A stretch of DNA of 11,321 nt from Desulfobacteraceae bacterium (GTDB taxonomy: Bacteria > Desulfobacterota > DSM-4660 > Desulfatiglandales > B25-G16). How positions within the stretch are numbered: the first letter of the stretch is position 1; each line of letters begins with the position of its first letter. Shown piece after piece: positions 3,453 to 11,181 of the stretch. The stretch lies in contig DAOVDY010000007.1 in the NCBI GenBank assembly GCA_030669265.1, forward strand, positions 1-11,321, read 5' to 3'. The notes below the pieces were generated by a model, which saw only the letters and a list, made by a program, of their open reading frames with translations, was not told where the DNA came from and ran no database searches. The position numbers and the translations under genes are program-made.

Positions 3453-3724
3453 AATAGTGAACAGTGAACAACTGCTACAGCAGGCAAGAGAGAGATTTTT
3501 CTGTTTGATAATTACCCTATATTTCCCATTTCCTAAATCCTCGAATTCCTCATTAAAAATCAATCCATTTTATTAAATCTTGCAATAAATTCTCCTTTTT
3601 TCTATGATATCCGCAATATTAATATGAGATACAGTTCTATGTAATTGAGGAATTTAGGGATTGTGGACTGGGAACCAGTTACAGTCTACAGGTTGTATTC
3701 ACTCTAAACTATTAGGTACCTTTA
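3453..3724. repeat. 272-bp intergenic region with small repeats between lpxC and the DUF4390 gene
   Basis: No gene is seen. Just after the lpxC stop lies a tandem 7-mer AGTGAAC twice (3456-3469). CCTAAATCCTCGAATTCCTCA starting near 3532 and TGAGGAATTTAGG near 3646-3658 form an interrupted inverted repeat, with arms about 95 bp apart and six extra bases in the left arm. A tighter hairpin follows: TGTGGACTG at 3662-3670 pairs with CAGTCTACA at 3682-3690 (9 bp including one G-T pair, 11-nt loop). It has no T-run, so it is not a normal terminator. I see no convincing promoter. The stretch looks like repeat-derived spacer. Confidence 0.45.
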
Positions 3725-4312
3725 ATGATAAACTCAGGAACGTTAGGTAACTTTAGGCATTTAAATTGTGCTTTAGTTTTGCTTCTGTTTTTCTTTATTT
3801 CTCCAGAAATTTCTTCGGCAAAAGAGGCTCGCTTATCAGATATAATTGTCACCAACACACGGGACCATCTACTTAGTTATTTTAATGTAAGAGATTGTTT
3901 TACCGAAGAAATGAACAGGGCCATTATGAATGGGATTTCAACCAAATTTACTTTTATCGTCAAGTTATATGAGATTAGAAGTGCATGGTTTGACCGCAAG
4001 ATAGCAGATATTAAGCTAACTCATGCTATAGAATACAACACCCTGAAAAACGAATTTAGCCTTCTTTTACCAGAACAAAATAATAAAAAGGTAAAAACTA
4101 AGGACTTTGATAGAGCGAAAGAATTAATGGCGGATGTGGTTGCCTTAAAGGTGGTCAGACTCAATAGGCTTAAAAGAGGAGTTCTCTATCAATTGCGAAT
4201 GAAGGCGGAGCTTGACAAGATTGAATTACCCTTTTACTTAAACTATGTGCTCTTCTTTTTATCCCTATGGGATTTTGAGACAGATTGGTATTCAGTTGTT
4301 TTCAAGTATTGA
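3725..4312 (+). CDS. DUF4390 exported protein, neighbour of NtrY-type kinase
   Basis: The 195-aa protein has a signal peptide: hydrophobic residues 15-26 and a likely cleavage after SSA at 30-32. This would place it in the periplasm or loosely at the membrane. The rest matches my recollection of DUF4390: an opening beta segment, EMNRAIMNGISTKFTFIVKL (62-81), AWFDRKIADIKLTHAIEYNTL (88-107), a helical middle, and the end LPFYLNYVLFFLSLWDFETDW (168-188). The biochemical function of the family is unknown. It is often encoded directly upstream of ntrY, as here, so a role in signal input to that kinase is a reasonable inference. The stop TGA (4310-4312) is formed by the first bases of an inserted element. 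Without the insert the frame would end at the same codon with TAA. A second, smaller hydrophobic patch is near the C-terminus. Confidence 0.82.
   Translation: MINSGTLGNFRHLNCALVLLLFFFISPEISSAKEARLSDIIVTNTRDHLLSYFNVRDCFTEEMNRAIMNGISTKFTFIVKLYEIRSAWFDRKIADIKLTHAIEYNTLKNEFSLLLPEQNNKKVKTKDFDRAKELMADVVALKVVRLNRLKRGVLYQLRMKAELDKIELPFYLNYVLFFLSLWDFETDWYSVVFKY
4301..4310 (+). repeat. Left copy of 10-bp direct repeat flanking the inserted element
   Basis: TTCAAGTATT occurs here, at the very end of the DUF4390 frame, and exactly again at 4461-4470. It flanks the 150-bp element as a target-site duplication would. Part of it (TTCAA/TTGA) also extends the element's inverted ends, so the true duplication could be shorter. 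Confidence 0.7.
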
Positions 4313-4460
4313 TGAACTAGTAAAAAGTCAAAATTGGGACGGCAAAGTAAAAAGCTCCAAATGCAAGGCTTGCGAATCTTGAGGAATGAGGCGTACTTAC
4401 CAGTACGCCGCAATGACGAAAGATGAAGCGTAACGCAGCAGTTGGACTTTTTACGAAGTC
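4311..4460. mobile_element. 150-bp MITE-like palindromic insertion element
   Basis: The ends are inverted repeats sharing the exact core GTAAAAAGTC (4320-4329) and GACTTTTTAC (4445-4454). Extending to 21 bp, 17 positions match. The interior has a perfect stem-loop, GGCGTACT/AGTACGCC (4390-4397 and 4402-4409) with the loop TACC. There is no transposase, so it would move in trans if at all. It is bounded by the direct repeat TTCAAGTATT. I recall closely similar elements with TAAAAAGTC ends in Desulfobacterota-like genomes, but cannot check. It separates the DUF4390 gene from the kinase gene. Confidence 0.78.
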
Positions 4461-4470
4461 TTCAAGTATT
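4461..4470 (+). repeat. Right copy of 10-bp direct repeat flanking the inserted element
   Basis: TTCAAGTATT repeats 4301-4310 exactly and lies eight bases before the kinase ATG. Confidence 0.7.
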
Positions 4471-4477
4471 AAATACA

Positions 4478-6709
4478 ATGAAAAGACATGTAGATATTAA
4501 AAATGAAGATTTAAAGAGGCGTAAAAGAGAAATAATCATCATATGTATTATACTACCTATTATTGTCCTTCTTACCTATCTAGTGACCAAAGTCTTTGAT
4601 CTTGGTGTTGAATTACCAATTGCCGGCAATATCCTTATCTTTGTTTTAATAAATATCAATGTAATTTTACTACTTCTTCTGCTCTACCTGACTATGAGAA
4701 ATCTGGTCAAGCTGGTCTTTGAGAGAAAAAAGAGGATCATGGGCTCTGGCCTTAGAGCGAAACTCGTTTTTGCCTTTGTAATCCTTTCTCTTTTCCCAAC
4801 TATAATCATCTTTTTTGTTTCAGTCCAATTTATCTCTCTCTCCATTGATTATTGGTTTAATCTTCAAATTGAACAGTCTCTTCAAAAATCCTTAGAGGTA
4901 GGCCAGGACTACTATAAAAGGATAGAAGATGAGGCATTGGCCTTTGGCAATAGCTTGAGTTCCTTAATTACCCATGAAGGGTATATCTTGCTATCAAGAG
5001 CAGATAAACTAGGGGCATTTATAGAGGAAAAAAGAAAGGAATATAATCTCGCCTCTATTCAAATCTTTTCATCAAAATTACTTCTAAGAGCAGGCTCTTA
5101 TGACAGGAGTATTGATTTAAAACCCTTTAAAGATCTGAGCATTGATATATTGCGCAAAAGTTTCAAGGATTCAACTGATATTAAGGTTATTCAAACATCT
5201 CCGCACGGAGACTTAGTCAGGGGCATTGTGCCGATATTTTCACGAACTGAGACAAAGGCACAGGTAGGAGCGATTGTGGTTGCTAAATTTATCCCAGGAG
5301 TAGTTTTGAACAGACTGGCAACTATTACCAAAGGTTTGGAAGGGTATAAACAATTAAAGATGCTCAAGAGACCTATAAAGCTAACGCCTTTGATTTTTCT
5401 GTCTATTGTTACACTTTTAGTCATTTTTTCAGCCATTTGGTTTGGATTTTATCTTTCAAAGGGTATTACAGTTCCAATAGAGGAACTGGCTAAAGCTACT
5501 GATAGGATCGCATCTGGTGATTACGGCTTTCATATTGATCTGGAATCCAAAGACGAGATGGGCATTCTTGTAAATTCATTCAACAGGATGACAAAGGATC
5601 TCAAGGAAGGCAAAATCAAACTTGAGAATGTTTATAAAGATTTAATTACAAGCAGTACGGAATCAGAGCAGCGCAGGATCTATATGGAGACTATTTTAGA
5701 GAATGTGGCTGCTGGGGTTATATCTGCAGATTCTCGCGGAGCAATCTCAACAATAAATAAGTCGGCAGAGAAAATGCTTAATATTTCTGCTAAGGAAATA
5801 ATAGGGCAGAATTACAAGTATATTCTTGGCCCAAAATATCGGTCAATTATTAGTGGATTTGTGGAAGGCGAAAATCGTAACAGAAAAGAATTTATACAAA
5901 GAGAGATAGGCATCTCAATAAAGGGGAATTACTTAAAATTGCTGGTTTCGTTGAATCTTTTGAGGGATGATCAAGATAATTATCTTGGACTGGTTGCAGT
6001 ATTTGAGAATATGACTGAGTTAGAAAAGGCGCAAAGAATGGCTGCATGGAGAGAAGTAGCCAGACGTATAGCCCATGAGGTAAAAAATCCATTGACCCCG
6101 ATTCAGCTTTCAGCGCAAAGGTTGAGAAGAAAGTATGGTGAACGTTTAGCAAAAGAAAATGGAACCGTTTTTGATGAATGTACGCGGTTGATAATAGACA
6201 ACGTTGAAGAGTTGAGGGTGTTAGTGAATGAATTTTCAAGTTTTGCTCGAATGCCGGCTTCTAATCCTGTTTTAGATAATATAAAAAAGATAATTCAGGA
6301 TGCAATTTTATTGTATAAAGATGTTCATAAAAATATTACATTCAACTTTATCGAAAATGATGATATTCCTAAATTAAAACTTGATAGAGAACAGATGAAA
6401 AGGGTTATGATTAATCTCTTAGATAATGCTGTGGCAGCTATACCTGATAAAGGAAAAGTTAAAATCAGGCTTTTCTATGACAAGGCATTGAGGATTGTCA
6501 GGGTTGAAGTTATTGATACCGGTAGCGGTATATCTAATAAGGATAAAGAGCGGCTCTTTGAACCGTATTTTTCTACAAAGAAATCTGGGACAGGACTGGG
6601 ACTTGCAATCGTCAGCACAATAATCGCCGATCATAATGGTTTTATCAGGGTTGAAGATAATAAACCACATGGTACAAAGTTTATCATCGAGCTACCCGCG
6701 AGGGTTTAA
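4478..6709 (+). CDS. ntrY: NtrY-type membrane sensor histidine kinase
   Basis: From the ATG at 4478 the protein has 743 aa. An upstream in-frame TTG at 4442 lies inside the inserted element and is rejected as the start. Segments, in residues from this ATG: membrane helices near 18-38, 49-72, 95-122 and 304-326; an extracytoplasmic sensing region at about 123-303; HAMP at about 315-380; PAS at about 400-510; dimerisation/phospho-acceptor helix with H533 in RRIAHEVKNPLTP; ATPase with the N box NLLDNAVAAIP (N650), DTGSGI (680-685) and LFEPYFSTKKSGTGLGLAI (693-711). This layout and the sequence AWREVARRIAHEVKNPLTPIQ are characteristic of NtrY. NtrY kinases normally phosphorylate NtrX, a sigma-54-class regulator. 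No such gene follows: waaA starts 64 bp on. The domain that receives the phosphate is therefore encoded elsewhere. Signal and targets are unknown; in other bacteria NtrYX affects nitrogen use, respiration or envelope functions. The gene symbol is by family resemblance. Confidence 0.93.
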   Translation: MKRHVDIKNEDLKRRKREIIIICIILPIIVLLTYLVTKVFDLGVELPIAGNILIFVLININVILLLLLLYLTMRNLVKLVFERKKRIMGSGLRAKLVFAFVILSLFPTIIIFFVSVQFISLSIDYWFNLQIEQSLQKSLEVGQDYYKRIEDEALAFGNSLSSLITHEGYILLSRADKLGAFIEEKRKEYNLASIQIFSSKLLLRAGSYDRSIDLKPFKDLSIDILRKSFKDSTDIKVIQTSPHGDLVRGIVPIFSRTETKAQVGAIVVAKFIPGVVLNRLATITKGLEGYKQLKMLKRPIKLTPLIFLSIVTLLVIFSAIWFGFYLSKGITVPIEELAKATDRIASGDYGFHIDLESKDEMGILVNSFNRMTKDLKEGKIKLENVYKDLITSSTESEQRRIYMETILENVAAGVISADSRGAISTINKSAEKMLNISAKEIIGQNYKYILGPKYRSIISGFVEGENRNRKEFIQREIGISIKGNYLKLLVSLNLLRDDQDNYLGLVAVFENMTELEKAQRMAAWREVARRIAHEVKNPLTPIQLSAQRLRRKYGERLAKENGTVFDECTRLIIDNVEELRVLVNEFSSFARMPASNPVLDNIKKIIQDAILLYKDVHKNITFNFIENDDIPKLKLDREQMKRVMINLLDNAVAAIPDKGKVKIRLFYDKALRIVRVEVIDTGSGISNKDKERLFEPYFSTKKSGTGLGLAIVSTIIADHNGFIRVEDNKPHGTKFIIELPARV

Positions 6710-6773
6710 ACTTGTTTTTGGTTGCTGGTTTCTAGTTAACGAATAGCAAGTTAAGAGAGACGAGTAACGAGCA
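6710..6773. repeat. 64-bp repeat-like spacer between kinase and waaA
   Basis: The spacer consists of short recurring units, such as GGTTGCTGG, CTAGTTAACGA and CGAGTAACGAGCAA directly before the waaA ATG. It resembles the degenerate 'AGTAACGAGCAAC' family of intergenic repeats that I recall from environmental Gram-negative genomes. GAGAG at about -19 and CGAG at about -8 are poor ribosome-binding candidates. In NtrY loci a response regulator gene usually sits here. None is present, and no remnant of one can be read. Confidence 0.4.
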
Positions 6774-8207
6774 ATGCTTATCCTCTACCACATTTTAGCT
6801 ACCCTTATCTTTATCATTTTTTCCCCTGTTTTTTATCTTTTAAAAAATAGAGGTCGCTATAAAGAAAGGTTAGGCCTGAATCTTCCTGATCTTGACCAAT
6901 CATCAGCTGGCAGGTTATGGATCCATGCCCTTTCAGTAGGTGAAGTCTTATCCGCAATCCCATTGCTTGAGGCATTAAAAAATAAACATCCAACAAAGGA
7001 GATTGTACTTTCTGTTAAAACAGCTACCGGTTTAGATGTAGCAAGAAAAAAGCTAAAAGATCCCGTTGACTGCTTATTGCCAATGCCTCTTGATTTCTGG
7101 TGGTCATTGAGGGGGATGATAAAAAAAATTAATCCAATCATTTTTATTCTAGTTGAGACAGACATCTGGCCAGGCTTAATCTCATTGTTAAAAAAGAGGG
7201 GGGTAAAAACTATCTTAGTGAATGGCAGACTTTCTCCACATACTGCAAAATCTTATAGGAGGTGGAGATTTTTAATAAAGAGAGTGCTGCAGATGTTTGA
7301 ATTATTTCTGATGCAAACAGAACTCGATAAACGTCGAATTATTAAAGGAGGACTTTGTCCAGATAAGGTCAAGGTTACTGGAAACATTAAATTTGATAAG
7401 TCATGGAGCCCTCTTAACAATAAAGAACGAGACAGATGGCTTGACCTCCTAAACCTTAAAAACATGCTCATATGGGTGGCAGGGAGCACTCATCATCCCG
7501 AAGAGAAAATCATATTTAATGTATTTAGTCAACTTCGTAAATCCTTTCCTGACCTTTCCCTTATAATCGGTCCACGGGAGGCTCACAGGTTTGATGAGGT
7601 GTACAATCTTGCCAAAGATTGTGGATTAAAGGTAATAAGAAAAACGCAATTGCCTGTAGACTCGCCTGCCACTGCCTTGCACGCCTCTTCTCGCAGAGCG
7701 GGACGGGCAGGGAGGCACGAGCGGGAAGAAAAGCAGAAATACAATGTTTTCATTCTTAATACACTCGGCGAATTAGGCCAAGTTTATGGCTTGGCTGATA
7801 TTGCCTTTGTAGGCGGAAGTCTTGCTCCTAAAGGTGGCCATAATCTTTTAGAACCAGCATTTTTTGGTATACCTGTCCTTTTTGGTCCTTACACATATAA
7901 TTTTACCACTATGTCAGAATTAATGATTAAATACAGGGCTGGCAAAATGGTTGCTGATGAATCGGAATTGCTCAGTGTTATGGGAGAGTTATTAGCTCAA
8001 AAAAGCAAAAGAAATGAGATAGGTAGAAGGGCCAAGGAATTTGTGGAGCAAAATCAGGGGGCACTGGATAAGGTGATGGGAATCCTTGAACCTTATATTG
8101 AAATGTCTAAAGTGCCTAAAGTAAATAATACGACAAACCTAAAAAACACAACAAACCATAGAAGCCCAACAAACACAAGAAACACAAGAAACTATGAAAG
8201 AGGTTAA
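6774..8207 (+). CDS. waaA: 3-deoxy-D-manno-octulosonic acid (Kdo) transferase
   Basis: WaaA transfers Kdo from CMP-Kdo to the lipid A precursor on the cytoplasmic side of the inner membrane. The N-terminus is a membrane anchor (residues 1-22). Family marks are LSVGEVLSAIPL (53-64, E57 being the proposed catalytic glutamate), VETDIWPGLI (127-136), NGRLS (150-154), MQTELDKRRI (180-189), KVKVTGNIKFD (198-208), WVAGSTHHPEE (234-244), GPREAHRF (266-273) and FVGGSLAPKGGHNLLEPA (345-362). At 477 aa it is about 50 longer than usual. Two additions explain this: residues 295-319, encoded by a GC-rich inserted repeat, and a low-complexity Asn/Thr-rich tail after about residue 443. Both lie outside the conserved motifs, so the enzyme is probably active. 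The last 14 bases overlap lpxK. The number of Kdo residues it adds cannot be read from sequence. Confidence 0.95.
   Translation: MLILYHILATLIFIIFSPVFYLLKNRGRYKERLGLNLPDLDQSSAGRLWIHALSVGEVLSAIPLLEALKNKHPTKEIVLSVKTATGLDVARKKLKDPVDCLLPMPLDFWWSLRGMIKKINPIIFILVETDIWPGLISLLKKRGVKTILVNGRLSPHTAKSYRRWRFLIKRVLQMFELFLMQTELDKRRIIKGGLCPDKVKVTGNIKFDKSWSPLNNKERDRWLDLLNLKNMLIWVAGSTHHPEEKIIFNVFSQLRKSFPDLSLIIGPREAHRFDEVYNLAKDCGLKVIRKTQLPVDSPATALHASSRRAGRAGRHEREEKQKYNVFILNTLGELGQVYGLADIAFVGGSLAPKGGHNLLEPAFFGIPVLFGPYTYNFTTMSELMIKYRAGKMVADESELLSVMGELLAQKSKRNEIGRRAKEFVEQNQGALDKVMGILEPYIEMSKVPKVNNTTNLKNTTNHRSPTNTRNTRNYERG
7661..7727 (+). repeat. GC-rich palindromic repeat inserted in frame within waaA
   Basis: Bases 7661-7730 are about 69% GC (48 of 70 counted), in a gene that is otherwise clearly AT-rich. 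The stretch contains inverted segments: CTCG (7661-7664) with CGAG (7718-7721), TGCCT (7673-7677) with AGGCA (7713-7717), and alternatively CCTGCC (7665-7670) with GGCAGG (7706-7711). It encodes about 25 residues rich in Ala, Arg, Ser and Gly (SPATALHASSRRAGRAGRHE) just before the conserved FILNTLGELGQVYGLAD block. Other Kdo transferases, as I recall them, have only a short variable linker here. The frame is kept. Confidence 0.68.
8104..8203 (+). repeat. Low-complexity repeat forming the 3' end of waaA
   Basis: Short degenerate units fill this stretch: CTAAAGTGCCTAAAGT, then AACACAACAAACC and AACACAAGAAACACAAGAAAC. They encode a polar tail rich in Asn, Thr, Lys and Arg that has no counterpart in typical Kdo transferases. 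The lpxK ATG (8194) lies at the end of it. A repeat that spread over the original waaA stop codon is the simplest explanation. Confidence 0.55.
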
Positions 8208-9297
8208 TTGGTCAGCTCTCCATACAAAAAGGAAAAAAAACCTTTTTACATTTTTCCTGAGGATACTTTCTTTTTTGTATGGTCTTGCTATTCAACTTAG
8301 GCTTGTAGCTTATACAATAGGTTTCTTGAGGACTAACCGTCTTCCTGCTTATGTTATTAGCATTGGAAATATAACTACAGGTGGTACGGGAAAGACACCA
8401 TTTGTTGCCATGCTCGCCAAGTGGGCAGAAACACATGGATTTAGAGTTGCTATCCTCTCGAGAGGTTATAAAGGGAAGAGAAGCAATGACTCACTTGTTG
8501 TATCTGATGGAAAAACGGTTTTGACATCTGTCAATGATGCAGGAGATGAGCCGGTTCTATTAGCTAAAAAATTATCTTCCGTGCCTGTATTAATATCAAA
8601 AAAAAAATATAAAATCGGATCTTTGGCCTTAAAACTTTTCCATTCGAGGGTATTGTTATTAGATGATGGATATCAGCACATATCATTGCATAGAGATGTG
8701 AATATTCTTCTCATAGATGCTAAAAGACGATTTGGAAACAGATCGCTACTACCCCTGGGCCCTTTGAGGGAGCCTATTGAGGAGATAAAAAGAGCGGATA
8801 TTATTATTATCACCAAATGTACAGATACATATTCTGGAGATGACCTTGTCAATTACTTTCAAAAAAATTTCCCAGTAAAATCTATTTTTCGATCTGGGCA
8901 TTTTCCTGATCAAGTCATATTTCCCCTTGCTGGTAAGACCTATCCGCCAGGTATTTTGACCGGAAAAAATGTGGTAGCATTTGCAGGGATAGCTAATCCA
9001 GATGATTTTTTAGAAATGGTAAAAAGTTGTGGGGCCTCTGTTATTCACTTCAAAGCTTTTTCTGACCACCATTATTTTAGCAATGATGAGATTGAAGAGC
9101 TTGTATCTTGGAAAAAACAATCAAATGTAGACTTTTTATTGACCACGGAGAAAGACTGGATCAGGATTGACGGAAAAATTGATGCTGATTTGGACATTGC
9201 TATATTAACTATAAAGATTGGGCTGATTTCAGGTGCAGATACCTTTTTTAATAGCATCAAGCAGGGGATTATTAGATCAGATGTGAAAAAAAAATGA
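8194..9297 (+). CDS. lpxK: Tetraacyldisaccharide 4'-kinase
   Basis: LpxK phosphorylates the 4' position of the tetraacyl disaccharide to give lipid IVA at the inner membrane. The 367-aa protein starts with an amphipathic/hydrophobic anchor (about 17-46). It then has the P-loop VISIGNITTGGTGKTP (54-69, with K67 and T68), LSRGYKG (88-94), DAGDEP (115-120), the conserved LDDGYQH (156-162), FSDHHYF (289-295) and TTEKDWIRI (317-325). All are typical of the family, and the length is slightly above the E. coli enzyme (328 aa). The start overlaps waaA by 14 bases and no strong Shine-Dalgarno is visible. The stop overlaps the waaF ATG by four bases (ATGA), which implies translational coupling. Confidence 0.96.
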   Translation: MKEVNWSALHTKRKKNLFTFFLRILSFLYGLAIQLRLVAYTIGFLRTNRLPAYVISIGNITTGGTGKTPFVAMLAKWAETHGFRVAILSRGYKGKRSNDSLVVSDGKTVLTSVNDAGDEPVLLAKKLSSVPVLISKKKYKIGSLALKLFHSRVLLLDDGYQHISLHRDVNILLIDAKRRFGNRSLLPLGPLREPIEEIKRADIIIITKCTDTYSGDDLVNYFQKNFPVKSIFRSGHFPDQVIFPLAGKTYPPGILTGKNVVAFAGIANPDDFLEMVKSCGASVIHFKAFSDHHYFSNDEIEELVSWKKQSNVDFLLTTEKDWIRIDGKIDADLDIAILTIKIGLISGADTFFNSIKQGIIRSDVKKK

Positions 9298-10364
9298 GGG
9301 TAAGATCCAGGCATAACATTTCAACTCAGGAGATTAGAAAGATACTGATTAGATCCGCTAATTGGGTAGGGGACACGGCAATGATGATCCCATCCCTCGT
9401 GGCACTAAAAAAAACTTTTCCTTCTGCTGAGATAACGGTATTAGCTAAGCCTTGGGTTATTCCACTCTTAGAGAATCATCCTTCAGTTGACAGAACAATG
9501 ATTTTCGCCAAAGGTAGCGGTTTCTTTAACTCATTGAAAGAATTAGCAAGGATTATATCGTGGCTGAGGGCTGAGAGATTCGATCTGGCTGTTCTCTTTC
9601 AAAATGCCTTTGAGGCTGCATTTCTTGCCTATATAGGAAAGGTTAGATATAGGATTGGTTACAATACAGATGGGAGAGGATTTTTATTAACCCATAAGGT
9701 TATAAGGGATCAACGCATTCTCTTAGTTCATCAAGTTGAATATTTTCTCGGTCTTATAGAGGCCATGAATTGGCACGTTAAAGAAAGAGAGCCAATTTTA
9801 TATGTTAATGACGAGGATAGCAGGTCAGGCTCTTTAATGTTATCTTCTATGGGTATAGAAGATACTTATTTTATTTTTGGAATTCACCCAGGTGCTGAAT
9901 ATGGGTCGGCCAAGAGATGGCCAGAAGAGAGATTTGCTGTTATTGGTGATTGGGCTGCTAATAGATGGAATGCCAAGGTAGTAATATTCGGCTCTTTTTC
10001 CGAGACAGAAATAGCTGCTAAGATATCAGATTTAATGCATGCCAATCCTGTCAATCTCTGTGGAAAAACGACATTAGGTCAAGCTATGGCATTAATCAAG
10101 AGATGTAACTTTTTTTTAACAAATGATTCCGGGCTCATGCATATTGCTGCTGCCTTTAATATCCCTTTGGTGGCTGTTTTTGGCCCTACTGATCATATTG
10201 TAACCAGTCCGGTTAGTAAAAATGCAAGAATTGTAAGGCATAATGTAGATTGCAGCCCCTGTTTAAAAGAGGTGTGTCCTTCGGATCATAGTTGTATGTT
10301 ATCAATTGAGCCAGAAGAGGTTTGGAGGCAAATGGAAGCCCTGAAAAGAGAATTGAAAATTTAG
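9294..10364 (+). CDS. waaF: ADP-heptose:LPS heptosyltransferase II (GT9 family)
   Basis: WaaF adds the second L-glycero-D-manno-heptose of the inner core, using ADP-heptose, in the cytoplasm before LPS export. The 356-aa protein matches family length. It shows ILIRSANWVGDTAMMIPSL (17-35, with D27 at the presumed base position), HPGAEYGSAKRWP (198-210), NDSGLMHIAAA (277-287) and VAVFGPTD (293-300). The cysteine-rich block C320-x2-C323-x4-C328-x5-C334 (CSPCLKEVCP...CM) is a hallmark of WaaF as against WaaC and WaaQ. About 14 extra residues precede the usual IRKILIR start, but the ATGA overlap with lpxK supports the upstream start. Confidence 0.92.
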   Translation: MRVRSRHNISTQEIRKILIRSANWVGDTAMMIPSLVALKKTFPSAEITVLAKPWVIPLLENHPSVDRTMIFAKGSGFFNSLKELARIISWLRAERFDLAVLFQNAFEAAFLAYIGKVRYRIGYNTDGRGFLLTHKVIRDQRILLVHQVEYFLGLIEAMNWHVKEREPILYVNDEDSRSGSLMLSSMGIEDTYFIFGIHPGAEYGSAKRWPEERFAVIGDWAANRWNAKVVIFGSFSETEIAAKISDLMHANPVNLCGKTTLGQAMALIKRCNFFLTNDSGLMHIAAAFNIPLVAVFGPTDHIVTSPVSKNARIVRHNVDCSPCLKEVCPSDHSCMLSIEPEEVWRQMEALKRELKI

Positions 10365-10371
10365 CTATTCG

Positions 10372-10572
10372 GCCACAGATTCACACAGATGAACACAGAT
10401 AGGTTTAAATGCAAAGAAATCACAGATATTATTCCTATCATCAATTACCTGGCGGTGACAAATATTGAAGTTGGCTTATTATTGAACTTTGGCAGAAAAC
10501 CAAAATTCAAAAGATTTGTATATATGGTAACAAAATAAAAAATATCAGTGGTAATCAGCGTAAATCTGTGGC
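10372..10572. mobile_element. 201-bp inverted-repeat cassette around a GxxExxY remnant
   Basis: The left arm at 10372-10400 begins GCCACAGATT. The right arm at 10544-10572 ends AATCTGTGGC. As inverted repeats, 23 of 29 positions match without gaps. The left arm is itself periodic: CACAGAT occurs three times. The 49-codon frame at 10389-10538 starts inside the left arm and ends five bases before the right arm, so arms and frame form one unit. No transposase is present. The ends share GCCAC/GTGGC with the repeat at 737-839. Confidence 0.7.
10389..10538 (+). pseudogene. Internally deleted GxxExxY-family gene, 49 codons, frame intact
   Basis: The frame encodes MNTDRFKCKEITD, which resembles the N-terminus of GxxExxY proteins, joined to INYLAVTNIEVGLLLNFG and KFKRFVY, which match their C-terminus (usually LNYLKATG..VGLLINFG...FKR). 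Full members are about 125 aa with a PD-(D/E)XK nuclease-like fold and unproven function. Roughly 75 residues are missing between residues 13 and 18, including the GxxExxY motif and the predicted catalytic strand. The deletion keeps the frame and there is no internal stop. Whether the peptide is made is unknown. It lies between waaF and gmhB, in the same direction. Recognition is from memory of the family. Confidence 0.75.
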
Positions 10573-10611
10573 TGAGCAGGTAATGAAAATTTAAAATTGA
10601 AAAAATAAAGA

Positions 10612-11181
10612 ATGAGACCGGCGATATTTATAGATAGAGATGGAACTATTAACGAGCAACGCGGTTATATAAATCATATAAGCCAATTTGTACTTTTACC
10701 TGGTGTGGGGAAGGCTATATCCCTTTTAAATAAAAATAACCACATTGTGGCGGTAACTTCTAATCAATCAGGCGTAGCGAGAGGTTACTTCCCCATAAAG
10801 TTGGTAAAAGAGATCCACGAGTTAATGGAGCAGAAGTTGGCAAAAGATAATGCTTATGTGGATGGAATTTACTTCTGCCCGCACCACCCCGAGGGAGAGG
10901 TCTTGGAGTACAGAAGGGCATGCAGGTGTAGAAAACCCGATACCGGCTTCATAGAGATGGCAAGGACTGAATTCGATATCGATATGGGAAGATCATATGT
11001 GATCGGTGACCGCTGGCTCGATATCGACTTTGCCCATAACGCACACCTCCCGGGGATCTTGGTGCTGACGGGGTATGGAATAGGCGAGAGGGAGTATATA
11101 GTGCCTCGAAGAGAGGTAAAACCAGCCTACGTGGCCAAAGATCTACAAGAGGCTGTACGCTGGATTTTAAAAGAAGAGTGA
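10612..11181 (+). CDS. gmhB: D-glycero-D-manno-heptose-1,7-bisphosphate 7-phosphatase
   Basis: GmhB removes the 7-phosphate during ADP-heptose synthesis in the cytoplasm, supplying the substrate used by WaaF. At 189 aa it has the family length (E. coli 191). It is a HAD phosphatase with DRDGTIN (8-14, D8 nucleophile and D10 acid/base), TSNQSG (49-54), and K108 in RKPDTG followed by GDRWLDID (132-139). The structural zinc site is complete: C89, H91, C104 and C106. Histidinol-phosphate phosphatases share this fold, but the LPS context favours GmhB. Base composition changes inside the gene: about 39% GC to position 10860, then about 52% to the end. It lies about 250 bp after waaF, separated by the GxxExxY cassette. 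No strong Shine-Dalgarno is visible. Confidence 0.94.
   Translation: MRPAIFIDRDGTINEQRGYINHISQFVLLPGVGKAISLLNKNNHIVAVTSNQSGVARGYFPIKLVKEIHELMEQKLAKDNAYVDGIYFCPHHPEGEVLEYRRACRCRKPDTGFIEMARTEFDIDMGRSYVIGDRWLDIDFAHNAHLPGILVLTGYGIGEREYIVPRREVKPAYVAKDLQEAVRWILKEE

Follow-up and report, generated by a model that had tools for sequence, protein, structure and literature searches.

A shortened GxxExxY gene as a decayed copy of a probable mobile inverted-repeat cassette in a Desulfobacteraceae genome

The window, the whole 11,321-nucleotide stretch of DNA analysed here, is contig C257 of a Desulfobacteraceae genome of 1.30 Mb that is 63% complete. It contains a 49-codon frame flanked on the same strand by a heptosyltransferase-like gene (9294–10364) and a GmhB-like phosphatase gene (10612–11181), both named from Pfam domains. 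An earlier note had described this frame as fitting exactly between 29-bp inverted arms, with its ATG inside the left one. The ATG does lie within the left arm (10372–10400), the stop codon ends 5 nt before the right arm (10544–10572), and the arms match by eye at 23 of 29 positions. The observation is thereby confirmed, with the minor amendment that the element extends past the 29-bp arms and that each arm is made of three tandem units (Table 1). Extended to 10361–10406 and 10538–10583, the arm pair spans 46 nt at 74% identity and is the longest of the 53 inverted pairs in the window; we consider it beyond chance because arm pairs related to it are also found elsewhere in the host genome and in its relatives. 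The left tip of the element provides the upstream heptosyltransferase gene with its stop codon. Full-length sister cassettes measure 458–484 bp between tips.

Table 1. Features of the shortened cassette and of a second arm pair in the window
Feature	Position	Strand	Remark
Whole element: internally deleted GxxExxY cassette, 223 bp	10361–10583	+	Tip-to-tip coordinates (row L002)
Left tip TTAGCTATTCGGCCAC, consensus GTAACTATTCAGCCAC	10361–10376	+	
Left arm: three CACAGAT units	10374–10400	+	10-bp spacing
GxxExxY remnant, 49 codons	10389–10538	+	N-terminal end fused to C-terminal end, catalytic middle absent
Right arm: units CACAGAT, CGCTGAT, CACTGAT	10544–10570	−	
Right tip TTACCTGCTCAGCCAC	10568–10583	−	
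Probable 8-bp target duplication TGAAAATT, left copy	10354–10361	.	
Probable 8-bp target duplication TGAAAATT, right copy	10584–10591	.	
Second arm pair, same design, three CACAAAG-type units per side	739–761 and 815–837	+ and −	About 100 bp (735–842)

The frame belongs to the GxxExxY family, as had been proposed. It scores 24.1 bits against PF13366 (cut-off 22) and 23.9 bits (E 4e-5) against TIGR04256, below that profile's own cut-off of 35, both matches covering only the C-terminal 26–28 residues (profile positions 88/89–116). Alignment with the full-length protein of locus L100 shows that residues 1–15 and the last third from INYL on are present, both in the original frame. The GxxExxY motif and D..ExK catalytic residues (E24, D63, E73 and K75 in alignment A1) fall inside the missing stretch, so that the frame is a remnant that lost its catalytic middle in frame. 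At L100, L102 and L106 the first start codon of the GxxExxY frame is likewise an ATG inside the left arm. Modelling suggests that GxxExxY is a Cas4/RecB-like PD-(D/E)XK nuclease; among solved structures, a sequence search with an E limit of 1 gave only a single weak match, 2f8l (E 0.37). Unlike Cas4/RecB-like nucleases of this fold, GxxExxY is a lone gene in arms.

Inverted arms, which the earlier note had expected at full-length GxxExxY genes, proved to be a general feature of them. From archaea to Bacteroidota, each arm typically consists of about three tandem 8–10-bp units. Arm scores of at least 23 were obtained for 61 of 85 loci with usable flanks, while the maximum of 85 shuffles was 22 (two of 87 genes had flanks too short for scoring). 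The arms are built of tandem units of the form CRCN[AG]AN, spaced 8–10 bp. At least two units of one type were present in both arms of 44 of the 87 loci, compared with 2/87 in the opposite orientation, 1/73 in far flanks and none in 20 shuffling rounds. Public loci from many phyla, including two from Methanosarcinales, gave scores of at least 22 in 62 of 75 usable cases (far flanks 1/63, shuffles 2/75). These loci are the best 80 of at least 584 relatives, chosen by similarity; five were dropped, and three duplicate loci of the relatives (L143 = L041, L167 = L082, L203 = L093). The strict same-unit test was passed by only 18 of the 80 (opposite orientation 2, far flanks 0/63), owing to other unit types, such as ACAGGAT, and to some loci without arms. 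The best arm lag was 8–10 in 41 of 53 and 52 of 57 GxxExxY loci. In the open-licence full-text literature we found neither a description of GxxExxY arms nor the arm strings themselves.

Where loci of different hosts share DNA, the common stretch often breaks off right at the arms or a little beyond them. Between L069 and L070 it runs from −90/−89 to +95 around the gene core, which are the exact arm ends, and L088 is 88.6% identical to the Brocadiaceae locus L150 over 535 bp (about −100 to +90, the arms of L088 lying at −88/+74). L042/L044 and L054/L144 share their flanks too and thus represent inherited copies at the same site. Shared DNA that ends near the arms points to arms and gene travelling together, apparently also between phyla, although single cases could be misbinned contigs. 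Relatives of GxxExxY are present on 8 plasmid records.

The host genome has one full-length GxxExxY gene, on contig C165, and further arm-bearing copies on C189, C92, C196 and C124. In the order as a whole, GxxExxY matches were found in 45 of 61 genomes, with many fragments among the matches listed. Elsewhere in the analysis, one gene set was limited to stop-to-stop frames, and in another internal stops were converted to X. An arm-first search that ignored the gene detected 33 GAT-type arms in 12 of 18 family genomes (reversed control: 1), 30 of which were read, some in overlapping loci (L229/L238, L242/L245). GxxExxY sequence was recognisable at E 0.01 or better in 13 of the 30. Three of these (L232, L239 and L240) are intact with 432 bp between the arms, and the remainder are partial or run off. 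Others of the GAT-type loci retain only the ends of the same element, 56–266 bp, some with nested palindromic inserts. The same arms enclose a deletion series, from the full 432 bp down to 56–89 bp, with sister copies of many sizes. The script found no opposite arm in 10 of the 30 loci (L223, L228, L231, L233, L242, L245, L246, L249, L250, L252), where there is a contig end, a broken arm or other content. L236 and L252 contain a different repeat. Palindromic repeats of the type CCTGCCCGCC..GGCGGGCAGG are nested in cassettes at L227, L230, L237, L266, L272 and others.

Many arms in the host's family end in the tip GTAACTATTCAG (101 matches in 14 of 18 genomes; reversed control: 7). When tips were used as boundaries (32 rows), flank identity peaked at 8 bp only, with a mean of 0.617 against 0.345 for swapped flanks. 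Full 8/8 duplications were seen in five rows (0.04 expected) and at least 7/8 in ten (0.22 expected), the other 22 being lower; as L271 and L272 are one site, this amounts to 9 independent cases among at most 31. Further sites are probably shared (L132, L134 and L135; L230 and L231; L266 and L267), L295 and L306 represent a single element that enters the count four times, and L291 and L292 may be orthologous. A further tip set, which has no control of its own and includes partners chosen with up to 4 mismatches that may be wrong, gave 7/8 in 12 of 21 rows and 9 of 18 elements. Thus, a good part of the tip-bearing copies carries an 8-bp target duplication. In the window copy the tips have diverged (TTAG.., TTAC..), and its TGAAAATT duplication, 5/8 at the strict boundary and 8/8 with a one-base shift, is AT-rich and hence weak taken alone.

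With arm ends from the alignment as boundaries there was no general duplication signal: 2 of 60 loci reached at least 11 bp and values were otherwise near control, none of 57 public loci had a duplication of 8 bp or longer, and the relatives showed a slight excess (3/53 at 7 bp or more, 0.95 expected). Duplications surface once the tip sets the boundary. In copies without a tip none was found, so we do not generalise the mechanism to them; outside the host's family, most of the loci read showed no such tip. At L088, a locus with ACAGGAT units from a different family of the order, the outer ends resemble GTAATAGTTCAGC and a flanking repeat of 7/8 can be made out by eye (GAAATTAC / GCAATTAC), so the tip may extend beyond the host's family. 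No empty palindromic target, defined as tip facing tip within 30 bp, was found in the 18 genomes.

Occupied and empty sites were then compared. The full-length C165 copy, at the rluB-tRNA site, has TCAAGCCC on both sides as part of a 12-bp repeat. Among nine relatives, four, including both sampled congeners, G001 and G002, have an empty junction here with a single copy of the repeat, providing an occupied/empty pair with a duplication; the other five hold other insertions or other sequence. The window's own waaF-gmhB site is empty in 8 relatives. G001 has the window's deleted allele there and G004 one like it with an 8/8 duplication; G002 has a repeat of another kind, and in G012, G014 and G016 the unit type differs. 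The suggestion of a previously undescribed mobile cassette is therefore upheld by inverted arms at GxxExxY genes, 8-bp duplications and empty sites; the GxxExxY cassette family is real and new in this combination.

Across 21 tip-bounded elements no frame is longer than GxxExxY, with 140 codons from stop to stop. Other frames reach at most 81 codons, too short for a transposase, and no transposase frame was seen inside these elements, judged by length and by eye. Downstream of six partnerless tips, longer frames resemble, by eye, ordinary chromosomal genes. Intact copies in family f1 show the GxxExxY frame only, between ends that would be those of a putative IS. One end of an IS66-type element in G004 (L276, with a DruA-like ORF and an IS66 transposase), GTAACAGTTTAGC, has 13 nt identical to the cassette tip in G004, G012 and G016; L276 itself is without a target duplication (1/8). 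MITE-like elements with GTAAC..TTTAGCTCTTTG ends (L125, L311–L335) occur in 11 of 18 family genomes, the host's included; among six, an 8/8 duplication was seen at one and a 7/8 duplication at another, and one such element occupies the waaF-gmhB site of G002. IS66 as a universal mover was a weak candidate, its domain having been detected in only 2 of 18 family genomes, many of which are incomplete MAGs.

We propose, with a probability of about 0.8, that internal deletion and decay have turned a copy of a mobile GxxExxY cassette into the MITE-like mini-gene. An intact cassette comprises one gene for a GxxExxY PD-(D/E)XK nuclease between inverted arms of about three 8–10-bp units; in the host's family the arms end in the GTAACTATTCAG tip, and insertion duplicates 8 bp of the target. 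Since the tip resembles the end of an IS66-type element, movement in trans is suggested: judged from sequence, an IS66-type DDE transposase recognising GTAAC.. ends likely mobilises the cassettes. The nuclease would be a passenger or might act on the arms, its function being kept by selection. Host-family cassettes thus apparently move in a known way.

The element family shares with MITEs terminal inverted repeats, a fixed 8-bp duplication (in the window copy only after the one-base shift) and an origin by internal loss from a longer element whose ends they keep, evident from the deletion series and the L100 alignment. Mobile insertion cassettes (MICs), such as MIC231, consist of a passenger gene between IS ends without a transposase; MICs are mentioned in PMC6542083 and PMC5444012. 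Like MITEs and MICs, the GxxExxY cassettes combine transposon-type ends and target duplications with the lack of a transposase frame, and they may resemble MICs in having a passenger and in being mobilised in trans; unlike in both, this gene is of a single nuclease family and the tandem-unit arms are of a type that follows the protein. PMC11946415 describes IS66 terminal inverted repeats that start with GTAAGCG and 8-bp direct repeats, similar to the GTAA ends of the tip consensus and the 8-bp duplication seen here, whereas the bounded cassettes measure 0.06–0.66 kb and, by length and eye, show no IS66 transposase frame inside. The REP/RAYT system is also reminiscent of the cassette, with palindromic arms by a small nuclease-type gene and many non-coding copies. 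RAYTs, however, are HUH transposases, while the GxxExxY model has a PD-(D/E)XK fold.

It is possible, if on balance doubtful, that the cassettes are self-driven, the GxxExxY nuclease recognising its own arm units as binding sites and driving movement or copying by nicking, cruciform formation or homing-type repair. The predicted Cas4/RecB-like fold, purifying selection on the gene and its standing as the only long frame in the tip-bounded elements would fit. Moreover, unit type follows protein clade across phyla: on the protein tree, which is short and weakly resolved and on which 87 of the 163 rows are labelled, it changes 12 times against 44–55 times in 200 shuffles, and 11 times against 28–35 in 57 non-redundant rows. 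At 33 loci, units within a locus are more alike than units of other loci of the same type. However, arms and gene are co-inherited, so covariation alone is no proof of binding; different unit types have tips in common, and the exact 8-bp duplication and GTAAC tip of the host family indicate a DDE transposase.

According to PMC4990558, the intervening sequence (IVS) of Coxiella 23S rRNA has inverted repeats at its termini, carries tandem GACAGAT heptamers ahead of the S23p ORF, and undergoes RNase III processing. The cassette resembles it in having a small ORF within inverted ends and tandem units before that ORF, but differs in its unrelated protein, its 8–10-bp units and, for the window copy, a location between heptosyltransferase-like and GmhB-like genes and not in a 23S rRNA gene. 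Because of the Coxiella design we tested PF05635 genes (four-helix-bundle, 23S rRNA intervening-sequence protein), which occur in 55 of the order's 61 genomes, with up to 24 matches per genome. In a sample of 50 loci (L340–L389; 30 listed matches and 20 hand-picked), one of which was dropped, 44 of 49 usable loci had inverted arms scoring at least 24 (far flanks 1/43, shuffles 0/49). Arm self-match in the 43 best loci was 0.55 at lag 7 and 0.51 at lag 14, compared with 0.22–0.29 at other lags. The four-helix-bundle genes thus have the same inverted tandem-repeat design as the GxxExxY cassettes, with 7-bp units. No duplication signal was found at these loci (none of 43 had a flanking repeat of at least 8 bp). 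Inverted pairs of GGGAATC heptamers are reported from Xanthomonas, with 70 and 75 per genome (PMC4692102). At G007:C5:4257–5094 a GxxExxY gene adjoins a four-helix-bundle gene.

Tentatively, and with more doubt than confidence, inverted tandem-repeat cassettes could be viewed as a mobile class of their own. The small ORF would set the arm period, at 8–10 bp where it encodes the GxxExxY nuclease and at 7 bp where it encodes the four-helix-bundle IVP protein, rRNA intervening sequences being among the latter; its product would recognise the arms and promote spread, and some lineages would have acquired IS-type tips later. An unlikely alternative at the RNA level holds that the arms form a transcript stem excised by RNase III in the manner of the 23S rRNA IVS, making operon insertions tolerable. 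The Coxiella precedent and the shared design of the four-helix-bundle genes favour this reading, as does a stable RNA fold of 10361–10583 (z = −3.5; 0 of 200 shuffles as stable). On the other hand, spacers of equal rank in the two arms share only 54% identity, where the figure for arms from different loci with one unit type is 47% (33 loci), which implies a weak pairing constraint.

Retention of the 49-codon product for a function, which the earlier note had offered as an option, is very improbable: the frame is open and both its ends are in the original frame, but it lacks the catalytic residues and evolves near-neutrally. Compared with its G001 orthologue it has 9.5 non-synonymous and 2.5 synonymous changes (dN 0.091, dS 0.099), giving a dN/dS of about 0.9 on 12 changes only; intact GxxExxY genes, at 0.03–0.34, are under purifying selection. 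The G001 allele has lost the arm ATG through a nested insert. The length difference from the 432-bp full length is not divisible by three in 9 of 15 copies, the window's included, about as expected by chance and without preference, although this test is weak as later indels and nested inserts alter length too. Taken together, the near-neutral dN/dS, the lost ATG and the sister lengths make the open frame look accidental. We conclude that the deleted gene, the arms on full-length genes and the mobile cassette of the earlier reading stand, that its functional peptide does not, and that the mini-gene is a shortened and dead copy of a mobile nuclease cassette that is widespread.

GxxExxY and four-helix-bundle genes, numerous and unexplained in this order, prove to be cargo of compact inverted-repeat cassettes, and both families are linked to the long-unexplained 23S rRNA intervening sequences. 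Protein-specific repeat periods give the question of function a concrete target, the arms, and annotators gain a means of spotting decayed copies like that of the window. To us, the most interesting question is the inverted tandem-repeat design shared by two unrelated proteins.

Several other repeats were observed in the window. The second arm pair (Table 1) encloses no gene and lies between glyS-like and mltA-like genes. An inverted-repeat element at 4296–4478 (..AGTAAAAAGTC / GACTTTTTAC..) has 37-nt arms at 73%, and a similar-looking element is present at the rluB-tRNA site of G009 (L262). At 6706–6775, before a waaA-like gene, a heptamer-like array (AGAGACG AGTAACG AGCAATG) is perhaps a decayed four-helix-bundle cassette; its lag-7 match of 19/35 is no better than at several other places. 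Another heptamer-like array, at 8120–8190, codes for the Asn/Thr-rich tail of the waaA-like protein and resembles, by eye, an arm of the IVP gene L380 of the same genome. Finally, a 22-nt inverted pair (3531–3667) is located between lpxC and a DUF4390 gene.
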